Virus record (IMG/VR): IMGVR_UViG_3300005253_000539
Location: 1-26,427 of that record
DNA from: a virus
Reading direction: 5' to 3' (one strand)
Length of the DNA stretch: 26,427 bases
Each line of letters starts with the position of its first letter. Positions within the stretch are counted from its first letter, which is position 1. The notes below the pieces were generated by a model. It was not told where the DNA came from and made no database searches. It saw only the letters and a list, made by a program, of their open reading frames with translations. Shown one piece after another: positions 2,470-26,427 of this stretch. The position numbers and the translations under genes were made by a program.

Positions 2470-3573
2470 TTAGCCCGTGACAGGCATCCCGTTGTGCTCG
2501 CGCCCGTCCAGCAGGCGGCCAGCGGCTTTCGGCATCTCCCTCACTCGTAAATCTTCCGGCCACTCGTCCCAATTGCCGCCCTTATGATCCTCTAAAGCCA
2601 CGCTCCGCGCCCAATCGCCATGACCGCACGGCTTCCTGGCCATGCAGAGCGGGCGACCGTTCGGCTTTTTGTAGTGCGGATTCGCCCCGAGCTGCTTCAC
2701 AAAGACTGCAACTCCGGCATCACGGCACTGCCGCACTACGCTGCGGATGTTCTCAATTTCACAGACCCTTGCCCCCGGCCCTGATTCTCCACCAGCGATT
2801 ATCCAGTCGAGACGTTCTTTTGAGCACGGATCGTTGATCGCCGCCACATCCCCCCCAATCATATCAGCGAGTTTACCGGCCAGACGTGGGCCGTCGAGAA
2901 ACAGTGCAAAATCCACCGGCCCCAGGGCAGGCTCATAAGAGACAAAGCGCACCGCCGCAGGGGTGTTCAGCAGGTGCGGGATGCGCTCGTCCGCCGTGGC
3001 CTGATCTTCCACGCTCACGCCGAGCCACACGTTGGGGATCGGCCATTTGAAAGCGCCGTTTTTCACGCTCTGCTCAAGCCGCTCGAATTGGCGCGGGAAG
3101 TTTCGCCATGCAATCCTGTCAGCGACATTTAAAACATGATTCTTTGTCGGACATTCAATCCCTCGGGGCGCAACGCCGGTACCACTAAAATACTCCGCCA
3201 TCCGCTCCGGGCGCTTGGTCAGAATCTGAAAGGTGTGCTGGGGGCAGAGCGCCATCACCGCGAATACCTGATCTATGAACTCGTCCGGCACCCCCTCGTG
3301 GAAGAGGTCGGACATGCTGTTCACAAAATACGTGGTGGGCTTCTTTTCATCCAAGGGCTTGGAAAGCCGATCCGGGATGCAGCGAATCTTGCCCGTCCAT
3401 TGCACCTTGCCGCCGACCTTCTTGGTCAACCCCTCGTAGTTCGCCACCTGCTTGGGGTGGTGGGCCTGCCTCCAGGAATCCCGCAGGGCGTAACAATTCT
3501 CACACCCCGCGCTGACCTTGGAGCATCCCAGCACCGGATTCCACGTCTCGCCCGTCCACTCGATCTTGCTCAT
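2470..3573 (-). CDS. DUF5131 / phage Gp37-Gp68 family three-cysteine protein
   Basis: A 367-residue protein with the hallmarks of the phage Gp37/Gp68 (DUF5131) family. These are the N-terminal IEWTGETWNPVLGC opening, a cysteine triad C17/C24/C27 (Cx6CxxCYA), YFVNSMSDLFHEGVP, FQILTKRPERM, VWLGVSVEDQ, and the C-terminal WIIAGGESGPGAR followed by GVAVFVKQLG. The family is related to radical-SAM-like iron-sulfur proteins, and the three cysteines are the likely cluster ligands. Its substrate is not known; nucleic-acid or small-molecule modification is speculation. It begins just after a repeated AAAGGAGCCAGG leader that supplies its ribosome-binding site. Length and motif order look complete. Confidence 0.9.
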   Translation of the reverse strand: MSKIEWTGETWNPVLGCSKVSAGCENCYALRDSWRQAHHPKQVANYEGLTKKVGGKVQWTGKIRCIPDRLSKPLDEKKPTTYFVNSMSDLFHEGVPDEFIDQVFAVMALCPQHTFQILTKRPERMAEYFSGTGVAPRGIECPTKNHVLNVADRIAWRNFPRQFERLEQSVKNGAFKWPIPNVWLGVSVEDQATADERIPHLLNTPAAVRFVSYEPALGPVDFALFLDGPRLAGKLADMIGGDVAAINDPCSKERLDWIIAGGESGPGARVCEIENIRSVVRQCRDAGVAVFVKQLGANPHYKKPNGRPLCMARKPCGHGDWARSVALEDHKGGNWDEWPEDLRVREMPKAAGRLLDGREHNGMPVTG

Positions 3574-4376: not shown

Positions 4377-4859
4377 TTAAATCCCCAGCGGATCCTGGAC
4401 CACCCGTGCGCCGTTCAGGGTGCCGTTCTTTCGGAAGATCACCACCACACTCGGAAATGGGGCGTTGTGTTTGGATCTACCAAATTTCAAGCGCCCTTTG
4501 ATGAACCGGATATCTGCCGCGCTGGCACAGTGATCGTGCCACCAGCGGGTATCCGTCCGTGCCGGTAGCAAGCAAACAACAACTTCCGCGTTGGTTTCAG
4601 CTTCACGCCTGGCCTTTTCTACCCATGCGCCTATTGCCCTGCCATAGGGTGGATTCATAAACACCCGTCCGGGCCAAGGTTGCGCCAAGCCATCCTCCTG
4701 CAAAGTGAAGCACCGAGGCGTTTTTGCGTTTTCCAGCGTGCAACACGGGTCAAGGGTAAAATTGAATTCCTTATGCAGTTCCATGAAAACATCCGCTGGC
4801 GTTTCCCATTCATCGGATTGCGATGATGTGTGTACTTCGCTCCAGGTCACTGTACGCAC
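4377..4859 (-). CDS. dam: Phage DNA N-6-adenine methyltransferase (Dam-type)
   Basis: A 160-residue protein of the phage DNA N-6-adenine methyltransferase family. It carries DEWETP at residues 16-21, FTLDPCCTLENAKTPRCFTLQEDGL (the substrate/cofactor side), the catalytic NPPYGR at 69-74 (a DPPY-type motif IV), and VVVCLLPARTDTRWWHD, all in family order. It transfers a methyl group from SAM to adenine in DNA, typically to mask phage DNA from restriction; this role is known for the family and inferred here. The start is GTG 4859 (or GTG 4850); both lie inside the 3' end of a truncated second methyltransferase, from which it may borrow translation. Its last codons and trailer are duplicated near 3576-3621. 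Confidence 0.88.
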   Translation of the reverse strand: MRTVTWSEVHTSSQSDEWETPADVFMELHKEFNFTLDPCCTLENAKTPRCFTLQEDGLAQPWPGRVFMNPPYGRAIGAWVEKARREAETNAEVVVCLLPARTDTRWWHDHCASAADIRFIKGRLKFGRSKHNAPFPSVVVIFRKNGTLNGARVVQDPLGI

Positions 4860-5026: not shown

Positions 5027-5299
5027 CTATTCATTGATCCTCCTTACCAATGGTGCGACGTTTTTCCCCAAAGCGTTTTTTACTGATTGGACTATGCCTC
5101 GGCGCGGAATCGCCTTTTCCTCTGGTTTATATTCGAGAAGAATTCGCAAGGTTCTCGTTTGCGGTTCGTAAGAGCCGGATCGCCAGCGATGCCAGGTGCT
5201 ATCAGCCACGCCAGCGGCCCGGCATAATTCAAGCGGAGTCATTCCCAGCGAGGCGGCGTGATCTCTGACTTCCTGCAATAATTCTGCTTGTGATTTCAT
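5027..5299 (-). CDS. XRE-family helix-turn-helix regulator
   Basis: A 90-residue protein. Residues 5-50 form a Cro/CI-type helix-turn-helix: LLQEVRDHAASLGMTPLELCRAAGVADSTWHRWRSG, followed by EPQTRTLRILLEY. ATG 5299 is preceded by AAAGGT five bases upstream. It is the first gene of the leftward accessory operon and lies next to the divergent control region with repeated motifs, the usual place for a phage repressor or Cro-like switch protein. The C-terminal 40 residues are basic, and no peptidase or oligomerisation domain is visible, so it is Cro-sized rather than CI-sized. The binding site is inferred. Confidence 0.85.
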   Translation of the reverse strand: MKSQAELLQEVRDHAASLGMTPLELCRAAGVADSTWHRWRSGSYEPQTRTLRILLEYKPEEKAIPRRGIVQSVKNALGKNVAPLVRRINE

Positions 5300-5380: not shown

Positions 5381-6181
5381 ATGAACGATTTACGGATACG
5401 ATGTTCGATGCTTCCATCATGGCCGGACTGTGCCAGGCGCACAGCCGGGAAGCAATACAAAAAGATGATTGAAGGCTTTGGTTTTGAATTGCGCCAGCTT
5501 AAGCCGTCCGTTGGGGCGGCGGTCGGAACGGCCGTCCACCGCGCGGCCACCGAGCTTATGCGTCGGAAGCGCGATGGCAATTCAGCAACGGATGGAGTTC
5601 TCGAAACGGCTATTGCTGCTTTCCATGAGGAAATTGCGCCAGGGGCGGTGTGGGATGATACCACTCCAAACACGTTGACGGCCCGTACACAAATCGAAAG
5701 ACTGACCGCGGCGTATTTGCCAATCGTTGCGGAGCGGGAACCGGTGCTGATCGAGGAACAATTCAAGGCATCGGTCGGTGGGGGATGGATATTAACCGGT
5801 CAGATTGATTTATGCGATGCCCAAAATGAACTCGACGACTTGAAAACCGGGGCTCTTGCCCGCCCGTACATTCAGCAACTCGGGGGATATATTATGTTGC
5901 TGGAAAGGCATGGGCATGAAGTCAAAAAGGCGGGAACGACATTTATCAAACGCGCGCGAGTCGCAAAGCCACAACCTGTGCCCGTGCGAACGTATTTCGA
6001 CCTGGAACCCGCCCGGCATTCGGCTTGGGCTGTCATTCAGGAAATCCGGCGCGCTGTTGAAGCGTTCGCCGAGCGGGGCGATCCGTACAAACTCCAGGCG
6101 AATCCCATGTCTCTAATGTGCTCGGAAAAATATTGTCCGGCCTGGGGGACGGATTTTTGTAACGTCCATTTGAAAGGATAA
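5381..6181 (+). CDS. PD-(D/E)XK exonuclease, Cas4/RecB-like
   Basis: A 266-residue protein with the PD-(D/E)XK nuclease layout: GTAVHRAATE (H53), WILTGQIDL (D143), LDDLKTG (D153, K155) and QQLGGY (Q166, Y170). Cys17 near the N-terminus and Cys247, Cys252, Cys260 in CSEKYCPAWGTDFC match the arrangement that holds an iron-sulfur cluster in Cas4- and AddB-type nucleases; here the cluster is inference. Such phage enzymes resect DNA ends for recombination. The start at 5381 follows AAGGG. It is the first gene of the rightward operon, whose last gene is an SMC-like ATPase and likely functional partner. The protein ends LKG because the next gene's ribosome-binding site is embedded in its 3' end. Confidence 0.85.
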   Translation: MNDLRIRCSMLPSWPDCARRTAGKQYKKMIEGFGFELRQLKPSVGAAVGTAVHRAATELMRRKRDGNSATDGVLETAIAAFHEEIAPGAVWDDTTPNTLTARTQIERLTAAYLPIVAEREPVLIEEQFKASVGGGWILTGQIDLCDAQNELDDLKTGALARPYIQQLGGYIMLLERHGHEVKKAGTTFIKRARVAKPQPVPVRTYFDLEPARHSAWAVIQEIRRAVEAFAERGDPYKLQANPMSLMCSEKYCPAWGTDFCNVHLKG

Positions 6182-6185
6182 TGAT

Positions 6186-6398
6186 ATGGCACAATTTCAG
6201 CAATTCAAGGTCCGCTCTGGCGGTGGGGAAATCATAATCAATTTGGATCAAGTTGTGTATTTTATGCGCGAAAAGGCTTCGCCAAACGGAGACCCGAACG
6301 ATTCGGGATCAATCGCTGGTTTCGCTGGAGGCGAAATACGATATCGTCTCGAAGACACGCTCGAAGAAATCAACGCTCAACTTTTGAAAGGAAAATAA
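6186..6398 (+). CDS. Small hypothetical protein of the recombination operon
   Basis: A 70-residue protein starting six bases after the GGATAA that closes the nuclease gene; TTGAAAGGA upstream is the ribosome-binding site. It has a beta-rich N-terminal half (KVRSGGGEIIINLDQVVYFMREK) and a short C-terminal helix (LEDTLEEINAQLLKG). I see no known motif. The TAA overlaps the next ATG. Conserved spacing and coupling support a real gene; function is unknown. Confidence 0.65.
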   Translation: MAQFQQFKVRSGGGEIIINLDQVVYFMREKASPNGDPNDSGSIAGFAGGEIRYRLEDTLEEINAQLLKGK

Positions 6399-6586
6399 TG
6401 ACGGGGGCAATGGATATATGTAACCACGGCCCGGAGACATATTGCACAGAATGTGCTCATGGTTGGGAATTACTGCCAGAAACCCCGCCTTCCTATTGTG
6501 TATTTTGCGGAATGGAGTTGGTTTCGGAAGACGGTATTTCCTACCCAATTATCGGCGGCAGGTGCCACAAACGATTGAAAGGATAG
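6398..6586 (+). CDS. Small Cys-rich (zinc-ribbon-like) protein
   Basis: A 62-residue protein starting with an overlapping TAATG. It contains five or six potential metal ligands: C8, H10, C16 and C19 (CTEC) in the first half, and CVFCGMEL in the second. This pairs into a zinc-ribbon-like fold (CxxC...CxxC). It ends in RLKG because TTGAAAGGA, the next gene's ribosome-binding site, is encoded at its 3' end. Function is unknown; it may bind nucleic acid or a partner in the recombination cassette. Confidence 0.65.
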   Translation: MTGAMDICNHGPETYCTECAHGWELLPETPPSYCVFCGMELVSEDGISYPIIGGRCHKRLKG

Positions 6587-6588
6587 CC

Positions 6589-7821
6589 ATGCAAATCGTG
6601 AACCGAAAACCGTCGCTCCCGGAGCGCGGGAAAATCAAAATCGGTAAAAAAGGCGAACCGCGAACGTCACAAGGCGGCGCTAAATATTCGCCGCCAGTCA
6701 AGCTCGATCATTTCATCATAACCGGGATGGATCGCGACAAGGAGGGGAATTTCATTCCCGATGTTGCGCTGATGGAAGCGATTGCAGAGAAAACCGGGCA
6801 GGATGCCAAAAAATTGACCAGGATCCCCGTTCGGCTCTTATATAACGACCCGGCCCTAAACATGGGGACACGATACGCTGCCTACAAAGGCCGGTCGGTG
6901 TGGTGCTCGGGGAACGGTGAGACGGCGCAAAGGGCGGTCACAAAACCCGGCCAATATGAGGCGAAAGAATGCCCTTGCGAAAGAATCGAGCAGGGATACG
7001 AGGGCGATCCGAAATGCAAAATCAATGGGGTTTTGAGCGTATTGATCGACGGCGCCCCTGGTGTCGGCGGAGTCTGGAAATTTAGGACTACTTCCTTTAA
7101 TTCCGTCGACGGCCTTGCCGGTTCGCTGGCTTTTATGGCGGCTATGACGGGCGGCCAGCTCGCGAATCTTCCGCTTGAGCTTGTGCTACGCGAAAAAATG
7201 GGAATTCTCCCGGACGGAAAACAGCAGAAAATCTATATTGTTGCGATTGAATACGCCGGCAACCTGGACGAGCTGAGGGATGCGGGTTATAAAATCGCGC
7301 TCGAAAATTCAAAAGCGAATCTCCGTATTGAGCACATCGAAGCGGAAGCACGGAAAAGTATGGAGGTCGGTGATGGCGATCCCGCGGCGGTGTTTCCAGA
7401 CGACGACGCCGAGGACGTCGGCGGGGAATTCTATCCCGAGGGCGAGCAAAGGGAAGGAAATACGCCCGAATTACAAGACCCGGCTGGAAGCGAGGGGCCA
7501 AAACCGGCGAAAGCTGCTTCAAAAAAGAAAACGACTAAAGTCATCGATCTTCCGAACGGCGGTTATACCGCTGAGGTCCTTGCGGCTCCGCCGAAAACGG
7601 AAATCCGCGACTGTACGGTCAGCGATGTCGAGGCACCATTACCTATATCAGTTACAACTGATGAACTCAAATCCCTGGCTAAAACTTCAGAGGTACTTGC
7701 GCCGCCGCCGGAGAACACTGAGGGCGATGAGGGTCCGCAAAACGATGGGGCGCCGCCGCCGAGCGACAAGGATGCGCCGCCGTTGACTAACCCCGGGGGG
7801 CTGGACGAGGACGTTTTTTAA
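6589..7821 (+). CDS. Gp3-like / recombination directionality factor-like metal-binding protein
   Basis: A 410-residue protein starting at ATG 6589 after GAAAGGATAGCC; the open frame upstream only shadows the previous gene. Residues 1-255 follow the Gp3-like family often labelled hydrolase or metal-binding protein: IVNRKPSLPERGKIKIG, YSPPVKLDHFIIT, then WCSGNGETA (C106), ECPC (C128, C130) and KC (C143) as a probable zinc site, then GGVWKFRTTSFNSV. The family includes the phiC31 recombination directionality factor, but many members occur without an integrase and probably handle single-stranded DNA. Residues ~260-410 are an acidic, Pro-rich disordered tail ending LDEDVF, like the tip of SSB proteins. 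No integrase is visible here. Confidence 0.8.
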   Translation: MQIVNRKPSLPERGKIKIGKKGEPRTSQGGAKYSPPVKLDHFIITGMDRDKEGNFIPDVALMEAIAEKTGQDAKKLTRIPVRLLYNDPALNMGTRYAAYKGRSVWCSGNGETAQRAVTKPGQYEAKECPCERIEQGYEGDPKCKINGVLSVLIDGAPGVGGVWKFRTTSFNSVDGLAGSLAFMAAMTGGQLANLPLELVLREKMGILPDGKQQKIYIVAIEYAGNLDELRDAGYKIALENSKANLRIEHIEAEARKSMEVGDGDPAAVFPDDDAEDVGGEFYPEGEQREGNTPELQDPAGSEGPKPAKAASKKKTTKVIDLPNGGYTAEVLAAPPKTEIRDCTVSDVEAPLPISVTTDELKSLAKTSEVLAPPPENTEGDEGPQNDGAPPPSDKDAPPLTNPGGLDEDVF

Positions 7822-8069
7822 TGTCAGGCAAAAGATACCGTCTGCAAAAGACGGAACGGCTGCAATTAAAAATAAAGTTGCTCGTCGCACACGGATCAAA
7901 TTGCTGGTGGTGCGAAGAACCTTTCTCGCCGGACGACTGGCCGACGTTCGAGCATGTAAACCCGCTTTCGCTGGGAGGGACATGGTCATTTGAGAATTTA
8001 CGATTGACCCATGAAAGCTGCAATGAAATGAGGGCAAATCACTACCCTATTAGCTATGAGGTAAAATGA
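7821..8069 (+). CDS. HNH endonuclease
   Basis: An 82-residue HNH protein. A CxxC pair (NCWWCEEPF) is followed by WPTFEHVNPLSLGGTWSFENLRLTHESCNEMRA, which gives the His-Asn-His core (EH, N in ENLRL, H in THESCN). The length suits minimal phage HNH enzymes, which nick or cut DNA. The ATG overlaps the previous TAA and its own stop overlaps the next start as ATGA, so it is an integrated member of the operon rather than an obvious homing insert. Confidence 0.85.
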   Translation: MSGKRYRLQKTERLQLKIKLLVAHGSNCWWCEEPFSPDDWPTFEHVNPLSLGGTWSFENLRLTHESCNEMRANHYPISYEVK

Positions 8070-9727
8070 TTCTGGAAATTAGAAATTTTCGGGGGATAGC
8101 AAAGGCGGACATTGACCTTTCGCAAATCGCGCTCGTCGCGGGCAGAAACGAGTCGGGGAAATCGTCAATCGCTCACGCGGCGCAAGCAATTCTGACGGGC
8201 GACGCCGTTCCGATCGCCGGACTCAAGAAATCCGAAGCGGCAATGTTAATTCACGCCGGGACGGGAAACGGATCGGTCGCATTGGAGCGGGAAGGTGGGA
8301 GCGCGCGAATAGCTTACCCGCAAGCGAAAAAAGAAACGGAAGGCGATCCGCCGTCCGCGTCTCCGATTGCCGCGGGCATGGTTTCCCCTGCCGACATGGA
8401 GCGAGCGGAGCTTTCGGCTGTCCTGATCGACTATCTCAAAGCCGCACCTAGCGAGGACGATTTGCGGGAAGCGGTCAAGGCGATCATCGGCGTCGGGGAA
8501 GGTTTCGCGCGGCTCTGGAAAAGCGTCACCGATAATAGTTGGGACGGTGCCCACAAGCAGGTCAAGGAAAAGGGAATCGAACTGAAAGGCGCTTGGCGTG
8601 AATGTGCCGGCGAAATGTACGGATCGAGCAAGGCCGAAACCTGGATGCCGCCAGAATGGGAATCCGATCTTGAGGGAGCCAGTGAGGAAAGTCTCCAGGC
8701 GGTAGCAACGGAAGCGGGCGAAATCCGCGATGCCGCGATCGCACACACGGCAATTTCAGAGGACAAAATCGAACAACTTGGGGCAAAAGCTGCCAGCGCG
8801 GAAAGGTTGCGGGATGATATTCAAAGCCTGGGGAAAATCCTCGACGATGCAAACAAGGCCGTCCTCGACAGCGCGGAAGAATTGCGAAATGCGCCTAGCC
8901 CTGATGAGGAGCAAGAAACCGTCGCCTGTCCGCATTGTGGAAAAGACTGTGTTATTCACGCTGGGGCGCTGACAAAGCCGCCGCCAGTGGCAAATTCAGC
9001 CGAGAATGCAAAACGTCGCTCGATTGGCGAGGAGGCCGTCCGCAAACATCAAATAGCATCGCAAACACTGAGAAGCGCAAACCTGAAAAAAGAACAAGCC
9101 GATCGTGATCTTTCCGAGGCGGAAGCGGCACGGGTCGAACTCGATGCGATTGAAGCAAAAGCCGACGGCGGAACGGCAGACGATGCAGCTCTTGAGCGAG
9201 CCCGGCGCGATGTGCAACATGCAGAAAATCGGTTCAAGGCATTCAAGGTTAAAACCCGGGCGGACAATCTGCATAAAAGTATTGGCCGGAACCAGGCGCT
9301 TGTCTCCATTTTAGCGCCGGATGGGCTACGTCGAACCAAGCTCCGCAATGCGGTTAAGCAATTCAACGGATCTCTCGCGGATCTGGCGAAAGCCGCAAGT
9401 TGGGGAGCGGTGGAAATAAATGCCGACCTTGCTGTCACGTACAGCGGTATGGGATGGAGGCTCTGCGCCGAATCAGCGAGGTATCGCGGTCGGGCAATGC
9501 TTCAACTTGCTTGCGCGTCGATTGATGGCAGCGACCTTGTGATTCTGGACGGCGCCGATATTCTGGACACGGTCGGCCGGCGGGGTCTTTTCCGGCTTTT
9601 GCGGCATTTCGACAAACCGTCGCTTGTTTGCATGACCATACCTGAGCGTGGTGACGTTCCATCACTGGCCGCGAAAAGTTACGGGAAATCCTACTGGCTT
9701 GAAAATTCAAACGCGGAGGAGGTATGA
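8066..9727 (+). CDS. SMC/RecF-like ATPase with CxxC coiled-coil element
   Basis: A 553-residue ABC-type ATPase of the RecF/SbcC/Rad50 style. It has an N-terminal LEIRNFRGI opening, Walker A GRNESGKSS at 26-34, and long coiled-coil stretches roughly at 205-275 and 320-410. The coil is split by CPHCGKDC at 288-295, which looks like a zinc hook. The C-terminal lobe carries LVILDGADILD (Walker B, D495). The usual glutamate after the Walker B aspartate is a glycine, as in some phage relatives. No SbcD/Mre11 nuclease gene is present; the Cas4-like nuclease at the operon start may be its partner. It probably acts on DNA ends during replication or recombination. The start overlaps the HNH stop. Confidence 0.85.
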   Translation: MILEIRNFRGIAKADIDLSQIALVAGRNESGKSSIAHAAQAILTGDAVPIAGLKKSEAAMLIHAGTGNGSVALEREGGSARIAYPQAKKETEGDPPSASPIAAGMVSPADMERAELSAVLIDYLKAAPSEDDLREAVKAIIGVGEGFARLWKSVTDNSWDGAHKQVKEKGIELKGAWRECAGEMYGSSKAETWMPPEWESDLEGASEESLQAVATEAGEIRDAAIAHTAISEDKIEQLGAKAASAERLRDDIQSLGKILDDANKAVLDSAEELRNAPSPDEEQETVACPHCGKDCVIHAGALTKPPPVANSAENAKRRSIGEEAVRKHQIASQTLRSANLKKEQADRDLSEAEAARVELDAIEAKADGGTADDAALERARRDVQHAENRFKAFKVKTRADNLHKSIGRNQALVSILAPDGLRRTKLRNAVKQFNGSLADLAKAASWGAVEINADLAVTYSGMGWRLCAESARYRGRAMLQLACASIDGSDLVILDGADILDTVGRRGLFRLLRHFDKPSLVCMTIPERGDVPSLAAKSYGKSYWLENSNAEEV

Positions 9728-9870
9728 TTTAACCGTAAGGATGCGGTTCTAGGAGCTGGCAGGACGCCGGCATTGCCAGGAATGACGGGCTGGAGTGTTT
9801 GGAGCCGACAGGGACGCTGGCATTGCCAAGGAAGGCCCCATACCCTTGTAAGGGTATGGGGAACGTTTAG
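9728..9870. repeat. Structured noncoding spacer with imperfect tandem repeats and long palindrome
   Basis: No gene is supported here. Two ~30-base imperfect repeats lie at 9753-9782 and 9802-9833, sharing GGACG(C/T)YGGCATTGCCA. A near-perfect palindrome follows at 9836-9861 with two 12-base arms (CCCCATACCCTT / AAGGGTATGGGG). The palindrome lacks a T-run on either strand, so it is not a standard terminator alone. It sits between convergent operons. Confidence 0.6.
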
Positions 9871-9910
9871 GGCTCCAGGAAATGCCGTTTTGGGCTTCCT
9901 GGAGCCTTTT
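9871..9910 (+). terminator. Rho-independent terminator between convergent operons
   Basis: GGCTCCAGGAA (9871-9881) pairs perfectly with TTCCTGGAGCC (9896-9906), forming an 11-base GC-rich stem with a 14-base loop followed by TTTT. It ends transcription of the rightward recombination operon. The stem lies directly downstream of the leftward transglycosylase gene and could also slow leftward transcription, though no T-run is present on that side. Confidence 0.85.
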
Positions 9911-24945: not shown

Positions 24946-25260
24946 TCACCCCTCGGATGTAATAATTGTGTGCAAATATACGTCGCATTGGCCCGATAGA
25001 TGGTTGAGCGAAAGCCCATTGGAAATGTCAATGCCAGGCCATAGCCATTCCCCGGCTGTTACGTCGGCTGCAATTACGACCGGGATTATCTGAGCGCCGC
25101 CCGCACCTGTTGCGCCGTTTACAATATTGAATTTTGCCGCTGCGCTAGCGGTTTCCTTGACATGGTATCCGACTAGGCGGAGCCCTTCCGTCGCTGCGAT
25201 GACTGCGTCCGCATCGGCGACAAGTGTTGCCTCCAGGGTCGTTGTTGGAACGAGCGACAT
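24946..25260 (-). CDS. Small beta-rich protein next to the capsid gene (candidate decoration protein)
   Basis: A 104-residue protein starting at ATG 25260 (a TTG two codons upstream is less likely). It is a compact beta sequence: LVPTTTLEATLVADADAVIAATEGLRLVGYHVKETASAAAKFNIVNG in order, then IIPVVIAADVTAGEWLWPGIDISNGLSL and CDVYLHTIITSEG. It is the first gene after the capsid gene and its terminator, the standard place for a capsid-decorating or stabilising protein, though it does not resemble lambda gpD. The call is by position. Confidence 0.6.
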   Translation of the reverse strand: MSLVPTTTLEATLVADADAVIAATEGLRLVGYHVKETASAAAKFNIVNGATGAGGAQIIPVVIAADVTAGEWLWPGIDISNGLSLNHLSGQCDVYLHTIITSEG

Positions 25261-25273
25261 TGGCAATCCAGGG

Positions 25274-25296
25274 AAAAGCGCGCCGGAGCGCGCCTT
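25274..25296 (-). terminator. Terminator downstream of the capsid gene
   Basis: On the minus strand GCGCGC (25293-25288), loop TCCG, GCGCGC (25283-25278) is followed by TTTT (25277-25274), and flanking AAG/TTT can extend the stem. It begins a few bases after the capsid stop codon. It probably lets capsid mRNA accumulate above that of downstream genes. Confidence 0.75.
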
Positions 25297-25300
25297 ATGG

Positions 25301-26427
25301 TTATATGCCGGTCACGGTGCAGAAAGCGACGGGGCGGTAAGTGACAAGCACGACGCGCATCGATGCGCGAATCGTCTGCTTGCCCTGCGTGAATTGGCTT
25401 CCGGTGAACCCGACTTCCAGCACGACGCCGCGCCGTTCGAGAAGCTGAATCCATGCGCCTTCGAACGATCCCGATAGTCCGGTGTTTTCCGTCATAACGT
25501 CGGATTTGACGACAGGCAAACCCCACAAACGCTCGGGGCCCGCTTCCGAGGGATTCCCCCAGATATAAATTCCATCGGCGGTGCGGAGCAGGCGAATCGC
25601 TTGCCAGTCGTTCGGGTGCATGACGTGGTGGGTCGCGTTGACGCGGCCAATCACCATCAGTTTTGTCATCGCTTTGAAAAACGCATCCGGCACCGGGTCG
25701 GAGCCCTTGGCCTGGGTTTGAATCCCGGAAACGTTTAGGATTCCTTCCAGGTTCGGTGTTGCGCCGTTGCCTTTCATAACCTGATTGTCGAGCCGCTGGC
25801 GGATGCCGAATCGAATGCGCTCCTCCAGATAGGATTGAGCCATCGCAACGTCTTCCAGTTGCTCGTCGGTCACGGGGATGCTATCCGTGATTTTCTCGAC
25901 CGTTTGCGTTCGTTCGGTCAGGACAAATTCAGATTCAGCGTAGGCCGCGCCCTCGGCTTTTTCTGCGGCGGCATGAGTCCTGGTCGTTTCTTCCATGTAC
26001 TTCGCGGCGGCCTGGCCGATTGTGCCGGTCGGCATAATGTCGAGAAGTTGAATGGGCCGGGTGACTGCCGGGACAATTTGAGGGAATCGCACCGATTCCG
26101 GCGACCATCCCGCAGAAGTCTCAAACAGGGTTTTGATTTCCTGGAATTGGGCCTTGAATTCGTTAAGGCTCACTCCGGGGATTTCAACCGCGCCGCGTTC
26201 GAGAATCCGCTTCAAACTGGTCGGGTCTTCCTTGAGCCCCTTGATCTCCATGAGTTTCTGACCAAGGGATTTGTACGGCTGGGGCTTGGGGGCGTCCTTC
26301 GTGGCTTCGAGCGCGGGGTGGATCATCTGATCGGCGGGCTTGGGTAGCCGATCCAACGCGCCGGGAGCGGCCGGCCTCGTCTCGGTTTCCTCTCCCCGCT
26401 TTTCCATTTTCTTTACGTCGGGTTTGT
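25301..26427 (-). CDS. HK97-fold major capsid protein, probably cut by right edge
   Basis: From ATG 26407 the frame gives 368 residues, but it is open to the window end (upstream residues KPDVKK) and ATG 26407 has no good ribosome-binding site, so the true start may lie outside. Residues 1-~105 form a charged helical N-terminal region like the delta/scaffold domain. The core then shows the HK97 pattern: SVRFPQIVPAVTRPIQLLDIMP, ESEFVLTERTQTVEKITDSIPVTDEQLEDV in order (E-loop and spine helix), LDNQVMKGNGATPNLEGILN, HHVMHPNDWQAIRLLRTADG, WGLPVVKSDVM, and a beta-rich end IRASMRVVLVTYRPVAFCTVTGI. Confidence 0.9.
   Translation of the reverse strand, partial: KPDVKKMEKRGEETETRPAAPGALDRLPKPADQMIHPALEATKDAPKPQPYKSLGQKLMEIKGLKEDPTSLKRILERGAVEIPGVSLNEFKAQFQEIKTLFETSAGWSPESVRFPQIVPAVTRPIQLLDIMPTGTIGQAAAKYMEETTRTHAAAEKAEGAAYAESEFVLTERTQTVEKITDSIPVTDEQLEDVAMAQSYLEERIRFGIRQRLDNQVMKGNGATPNLEGILNVSGIQTQAKGSDPVPDAFFKAMTKLMVIGRVNATHHVMHPNDWQAIRLLRTADGIYIWGNPSEAGPERLWGLPVVKSDVMTENTGLSGSFEGAWIQLLERRGVVLEVGFTGSQFTQGKQTIRASMRVVLVTYRPVAFCTVTGI

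Follow-up and report, generated by a model that had tools for sequence, protein, structure and literature searches.

The window analysed here is a 26.4-kb fragment of viral DNA (IMG/VR virus record IMGVR_UViG_3300005253_000539, positions 1-26,427). It carries a recombination cassette with a gene for a Gp3-like protein, i.e., a member of PF18897, to which gp3, the recombination directionality factor (RDF) of phiC31, also belongs. The Gp3-like protein is best explained as a non-Rad52 partner of phage exonucleases that binds and anneals single-stranded DNA (ssDNA) in an exonuclease-annealer-ATPase module, its role with the phiC31 integrase being a later, secondary adaptation; a probability of roughly 0.7 is assigned to this explanation. 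The cassette consists of six tightly coupled + strand open reading frames (ORFs) at 5381-9727 (Table 1), with spacings of +4, -1, +2, -1 and -4 nt between successive ORFs. The ORF coordinates, the gaps and the Pfam and PHROG matches bear out the six coupled genes reported in a preliminary description of this DNA.

Exchange of Gp3-like and RecT genes between the same neighbours

The same nuclease and ATPase families flank a Gp3-like gene in the window and in L025, L028, L035, L067 and L068. A scan with the nuclease profile found canonical RecT between homologous nuclease and ATPase genes in L154, L155, L158 and L161, and a phi297-type RecT in the same slot in L151 and L152; phages phi297, Magia and CF418P1 likewise have RecT placed between nuclease and ATPase genes homologous to these. 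In Bordetella phage PY223 the slot is filled by a 364-aa protein, relatives of which are annotated as RecT or RecT-like and lie beside RecE-like nucleases. PF03837 and PF18897 did not occur together in any of the cassette records searched.

The nuclease tree interleaves the two kinds of cassette: L028 (Gp3) groups with L155 (RecT) with support of 99/98, L067 (Gp3) with PY223 (87/84), and the window (Gp3) with L151 (RecT; 84/68). This interleaving indicates that the slot gene was exchanged in place, probably more than once; one of the three exchanges read from the tree is well supported and the other two are likely. Among comparative evidence from sequence, none speaks more strongly for equivalent function than a swap of unrelated genes between a constant pair of neighbours, and interchangeability with a known single-strand annealing protein (SSAP) at the same locus is what the Gp3/RecT exchange displays.

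Pairing with exonucleases

A same-strand exonuclease lies within 1.5 kb of the Gp3 gene in 113 of the 116 loci that have at least 1.2 kb of upstream sequence, and in 108 it is upstream. These loci were sampled from plasmids, chromosomes and phages, phiC31 itself included. After clustering at 70% identity the pairing was found in 29 of 36 clusters, some of the remainder being cut at contig ends. The paired exonucleases belong to different families (YqaJ, DUF3799/ExoVIII, phrog_2139, phrog_10477, PDDEXK_1 and the Cas4 family phrog_298, the last in phiC31, VWB, MinS1, BabyYoda, VResidence and Halsey), and pairing with mixed exonuclease families is the pattern shown by annealing proteins. The operonic partner exonuclease looked for in an SSAP is present in the window as well, with the nuclease upstream in the same operon. 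The substitution of Gp3 for RecT in situ, together with exonuclease pairing nearly everywhere, gives good comparative support to the earlier proposal that the Gp3-like protein could supply the annealing or ssDNA-binding role.

Plasmids and chromosomes of Acinetobacter, Pseudomonas, Aeromonas and related bacteria widely carry a module of DUF932, YqaJ exonuclease and Gp3-like protein, with the exonuclease upstream (L069-L145, L012 and L013). In L023, the ORF directly upstream of Gp3 (7085-7906) is not an exonuclease; it gave no Pfam or PHROG match, and its sequence is reminiscent of the DUF1351-type proteins found with annealers elsewhere among phages.

Conserved core of the cassette

Scans of viral contigs with the window nuclease, Gp3-like protein or ATPase as single queries gave no match, nor did tblastn of the Gp3-like protein against phages, and alignment queries were needed. 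Relatives were collected with a Gp3 alignment; the set was limited to the best 80 of 587 confirmed loci, and the genome survey covers mostly Pseudomonadota. The order nuclease-Gp3-ATPase recurs in L025, L028, L035/L036, L067 and L068, and a Gp3-ATPase pair is found in L026 and L027 and, in loci truncated by a contig edge, in L021 and L030. No homologue of the HNH gene or of the two small ORFs lies beside Gp3 in the related loci; all three were found in this record only. On this comparison the conserved core consists of three genes, encoding nuclease, Gp3-like protein and ATPase, and the HNH protein is probably an accessory insertion outside it.

The preliminary description had envisaged a distinct machine of four families, HNH enzyme included, and had called for a survey of their co-occurrence. 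Nuclease, Gp3 and ATPase do recur together and HNH does not. An obligate four-gene machine was rejected on these grounds: the core is nuclease-annealer-ATPase, RecT versions of it exist, and Gp3 with an exonuclease also occurs without the ATPase.

Family, fold and metal site of the Gp3-like protein

The Gp3-like protein matches PF18897 with E 7.5e-38 (130.8 bits against a gathering cut-off of 23.6), and hhalign links the window family to phiC31-type Gp3 at 96.9%. A beta-rich core (about residues 10-225) is followed by helices and a long low-complexity linker. The AF2 model of the window protein has a pLDDT of 86 and a pTM of 0.84, and a second model, of the core of a plasmid-type homologue, has a pLDDT of 85; the alignments behind the two models share members, and hence they are not fully independent. 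The best PDB match of both in Foldseek is the phiC31 RDF (9teh, 9teh_I; E 9e-7 for the window model and 6e-7 for the plasmid-type model), placing the protein in that fold. The second tier consists mostly of OB folds of the bacterial single-stranded DNA-binding protein (SSB) type, which are weak (E 0.03 or worse), and the viral library likewise gave weak matches to ssDNA-binding proteins.

No Rad52-fold protein was among the 50 best Foldseek matches shown, and no RecT, ERF or Rad52 Pfam match was found for the Gp3-like protein; it does not fall in the Rad52/RecT/Red-beta/Erf superfamily by these comparisons. Three cysteines of its putative zinc site, C106, C128 and C143, are invariant in 58 sequences, and the position of the fourth differs between subfamilies. 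A Gp3-nuclease fusion was looked for in the long C-terminal extensions that several relatives have (L022-L037 and L066); none was found by Pfam, or by PDB sequence for L029.

Nuclease and ATPase

The nuclease matches PDDEXK_1 (PF12705; E 1.1e-9) and the exonuclease family phrog_69, with 49% identity to its homologue in L151 and 45% to those of Bordetella phages. The motifs GTxxH (H53), D143, DxKxG (D153, K155) and Y170 are columns invariant in seven homologues, and four cysteines (C17, C247, C252 and C260) are kept in all cassette relatives. The quartet fits that expected of a Cas4/AddB-type Fe-S cluster, which is putative here. RecB-family motifs with four conserved cysteines place the enzyme among Cas4/RecB-type Fe-S nucleases, in agreement with the Cas4-like nuclease with a possible Fe-S cluster that had been described.

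The ATPase matches AAA_15/AAA_23 (PF13175/PF13476; E 1e-7) and the SbcC-like phrog_77. A Walker A motif, GRNESGKS, lies at residue 26, and a Rad50-like, zinc-hook-like CPHC motif at residues 288-291 is invariant in nine relatives; Walker A together with a CPxC hook that separates the two ATPase halves marks the protein as an SbcC/Rad50 ATPase. An SbcD/Mre11 phosphoesterase (PF00149, calcineurin-type) was found neither in nine virus records (the window and eight relatives, some of them fragments) nor in four phage genomes, so that the partner that would define an SbcCD or Mre11-Rad50 complex is missing from these records. Because no SbcD/Mre11 was found with the ATPase, a partnership between the ATPase and the Cas4-like nuclease is plausible. 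To that extent the records agree with the suggestion that the nuclease could replace SbcD.

A shared C-terminal tip

The Gp3 proteins encoded beside the ATPase end in tips of the kind DEDVF (window), PEDLF, PADLF, NIDLF and AGDLF after variable low-complexity linkers. Where the locus has an ATPase match, 11 of 13 Gp3 proteins have a terminal F, as against 3 of 118 others, a contrast whose significance is overstated by kinship among the sequences; one of the 13, L040, has its ATPase match on the other strand. Such a tip is missing from the Gp3 of L027, which is ATPase-linked and paired with a DUF3799 nuclease. The RecT protein in the slot has the tip GDLF in L151 and LDLF in L155, and the PY223 slot protein ends in KEVF; five homologues of the PY223 protein encoded elsewhere have no terminal F. 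Among the 10 slot proteins of the nuclease subclade that holds these cassettes, 9 have a terminal F, three of the four that are not Gp3 (GDLF, LDLF and KEVF) among them, against a background of 3.6%. The tip tracks the cassette rather than the protein family, a pattern suggestive of docking on a partner shared by the Gp3 and RecT versions. The E. coli SSB tail is DDDIPF, and the tips of the slot proteins resemble it.

In other nuclease-X-ATPase cassettes (L153, L157, L162 and L165) the slot proteins end in VKFDM, VKFEA, VNFEM or similar. The L157 record has a RecT match, and the slot proteins of L153, L162 and L165 may be yet other annealers.

Proposed mechanism and alternative roles

In systems that combine RecB/Cas4-type nucleases with SSAPs, the nuclease resects DNA ends and the slot protein pairs the exposed strands. 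By analogy, and with the polarity of resection likewise inferred, the Cas4-type nuclease would resect DNA ends, and the Gp3-like protein would coat and anneal the exposed single strand, taking the part that RecT has in the sister cassettes. The ATPase would tether the ends or feed blocked ends to the nuclease, which would stand in place of an SbcD-type partner, and the acidic/hydrophobic tip would dock the Gp3-like protein to the partner common to the RecT versions, for which nuclease and ATPase are the likeliest candidates.

The main competing account is that the Gp3-like protein is an OB-fold, SSB-like protein with no annealing activity of its own, which would shield resected DNA or load a host recombinase. 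The bacterial SSBs and viral ssDNA-binding proteins among the weaker fold matches favour it, as do the SSB-like tip and the lack of PF00436 SSB in 22 of the 24 Gp3 records tested. It is nevertheless unlikely: the slot that Gp3 takes is that of RecT, an annealase, the remaining two records have an SSB of their own in addition to Gp3, and the SSB-like fold matches are weak. Exchange with RecT also speaks against a processivity factor, inhibitor or scaffold that acts on exonuclease and ATPase without touching DNA, and the several partner exonuclease families would be odd for a dedicated subunit; such a role is improbable, even though the coupling to exonucleases is very tight, the tip suggests protein docking, and protein-protein contacts are the means by which phiC31 gp3 acts on its integrase (PMC5814800).

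Least probable is a role as an RDF, turning a serine integrase towards excision as gp3 does in phiC31, with the nuclease adjacent only incidentally. Pfam, hhalign and fold do place it in the family of phiC31 gp3, an experimentally established RDF (PMC5814800, PMC3132441). Yet only four of the 43 records examined gave a match to a large serine recombinase above cut-off, namely phiC31, VResidence, Halsey and one more; the 43 include four RecT-type cassette phages without Gp3. Tyrosine integrases were over cut-off in 26 of the 43, and VWB and MinS1 have one together with the Gp3 gene. No large serine integrase was found in the window fragment, and the near-relative virus records, 15 in number and some of them fragments (G001-G010 and G012-G016), gave no match above cut-off and one below it, in G002. 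In the lytic Microbacterium phage BabyYoda (L016) a gene at 25193-25942 is annotated 'recombination directionality factor', and neither kind of integrase was found; the same puzzle has been noted for the lytic phage BAjuniper, which has an RDF-type gene without an integrase (PMC10652889). With exonuclease pairing near universal, the RDF function was rejected as the general role of Gp3, and the name of the family is probably misleading.

Several observations weigh against the annealing role. The OB-fold resemblance of the Gp3 models is weak enough that GFP-type barrels score in the same range, and hhalign profile comparison detects no homology between Gp3 and RecT. The RecT-like label of the PY223 slot protein rests on depositors' annotation of its relatives, shallow profiles giving no link to phi297-type RecT. 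The literature yielded no assay of annealing or of ssDNA binding for any member of PF18897; a commentary on Khaleel et al. reports that att-site DNA was not bound by phiC31 gp3 on its own, a result that does not bear on ssDNA. The selection of the best loci and the dominance of Pseudomonadota described above count here too. Three distant Gp3 carriers outside the cassette group hold RecT (G018 and G020) or ERF (G036) elsewhere in the record, and the window, being a fragment, leaves room for a separate annealer elsewhere in this phage. Within its 26.4 kb, no RecT, ERF, Rad52, SSB or calcineurin-type match was found, confirming for this genome fragment the reported lack of a RecT-type annealase and of Mre11/SbcD. 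In favour of the annealing role, Rad52 was over cut-off in none of the virus records searched, most of which have no other annealer, and Sak4-type AAA_24 was found in 0 of the 24 Gp3 records tested; PF10991 had no match in the records, but neither did it in the control, making that search uninformative.

Relation to known systems

The closest counterparts are the nuclease-RecT-ATPase cassettes of Pseudomonas phage phi297, Burkholderia phage Magia, Achromobacter phage CF418P1 and IMG/VR records L151, L155 and L158. They share the homologous four-Cys nuclease, the SbcC-like ATPase, gene order and strand with the window; their central gene is RecT or RecT-like instead of Gp3-like, and phi297 and CF418P1 have an additional translocase gene before the ATPase. 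The early region of phiC31 (gp1-gp3) resembles the window in having an exonuclease upstream of the PF18897 protein, in the order exonuclease-gp2-gp3, and an HNH gene downstream. It differs in its phrog_298 exonuclease, in the lack of an ATPase in the segment, and in a gp3 of 244 aa with no F tip and a demonstrated RDF function.

The two-component logic of exonuclease and annealer, with adjacent genes, is that of lambda Red and RecET, and the plasmid Gp3-like genes adjoin a YqaJ/RecE-like exonuclease; the Gp3-like protein differs in having no detectable sequence relation to RecT and no Rad52-fold protein among the fold matches shown. The phrog_77 ATPases have the Rad50-like Walker A and CPxC hook in common with SbcCD and Mre11-Rad50, but in the virus and phage records tested their usual neighbour is a Cas4-type nuclease and not SbcD/Mre11. 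Likeness to OB-fold SSAP and SSB proteins (Gp2.5 and bacterial SSB) is confined to a weak fold resemblance and the acidic/hydrophobic tip, is not significant by similarity alone, and is accompanied by a difference, the extra four-Cys metal site.

There is about an even chance that PF18897 is a new, non-Rad52 SSAP family, with an OB-like barrel and a zinc site, of phages, plasmids and chromosomal elements; that one of its members, the phiC31 RDF, was drafted into an additional role; and that the tip shared with RecT docks either annealer onto a Cas4-nuclease/Rad50-type resection complex. The RDFs of serine integrases are mutually unrelated, and some have been suggested to be co-opted from other functions, an annealing-type function not being named (PMC3132441). 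No literature naming a Gp3-like protein an annealing protein was found, which, with partial coverage, argues weakly for novelty. Should PF18897 be a family of annealing proteins, the phiC31 RDF would gain a testable original function, the 'RDF' genes of lytic phages without an integrase would be explained, and a misleading family name would be corrected. One more class would join the few annealers known, already paired with exonucleases in elements of Acinetobacter, Pseudomonas and Aeromonas, and the Gp3-like and exonuclease pairs would be a possible source of recombineering tools. The common tip provides a concrete prediction for the assembly of annealer, nuclease and ATPase.

Cassette layout and neighbouring features

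Table 1. Features of the cassette and its surroundings (window coordinates).
Feature	Coordinates	Strand	Evidence
Divergent helix-turn-helix (HTH) protein upstream of cassette	5027..5299	-	PF13560 below cut-off; phrog_4836 CII-like, E 5e-4
RecB/Cas4-type PD-(D/E)XK exonuclease, 266 aa	5381..6181	+	Pfam, PHROGs, conserved columns
70-aa ORF, function not assigned, not conserved in relatives	6186..6398	+	No Pfam/PHROG family; this record only
62-aa Cys-rich ORF (possible zinc ribbon), not conserved in relatives	6398..6586	+	Six Cys; no Pfam family, weak PHROG matches; this record only
Gp3-like protein (PF18897), 410 aa; proposed ssDNA-binding/annealing protein	6589..7821	+	Pfam, AF2 model, Foldseek, hhalign
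Putative four-Cys zinc site of Gp3-like protein (C106, C128, C130, C143)	6904..7017	+	Cys conservation
DEDVF C-terminal tip of Gp3-like protein, SSB-tail-like	7804..7818	+	Tip comparison across loci
Small HNH protein, 82 aa	7821..8069	+	PF01844/PF14279, HNH E 1e-6
SbcC/Rad50-like SMC-type ATPase, 553 aa	8066..9727	+	PF13175/PF13476, phrog_77, homologues at 38%
Two perfect inverted repeats (12-bp arms, 9836-9861; 11-bp arms, 9871-9906, then TTTTCT)	9836..9906		Terminator-like site

The - strand of the window carries siphovirus head and tail genes. The inverted repeats 3' of the cassette are likely to be a terminator between the convergent gene sets, and the HTH protein is a possible early regulator. 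The region 9762-9906 is dense in repeats, containing a 17-nt direct repeat besides the hairpin and inverted repeat. An identical ribosome-binding stretch, TTGAAAGGA, precedes three consecutive genes (starts 6186, 6398 and 6589; region 6170-6591), as if the start regions had been duplicated. Upstream of the cassette, on the opposite strand, are a DUF5131 gene (phrog_2045; 2470-3573) and a Dam-type methylase gene (4377-4859).

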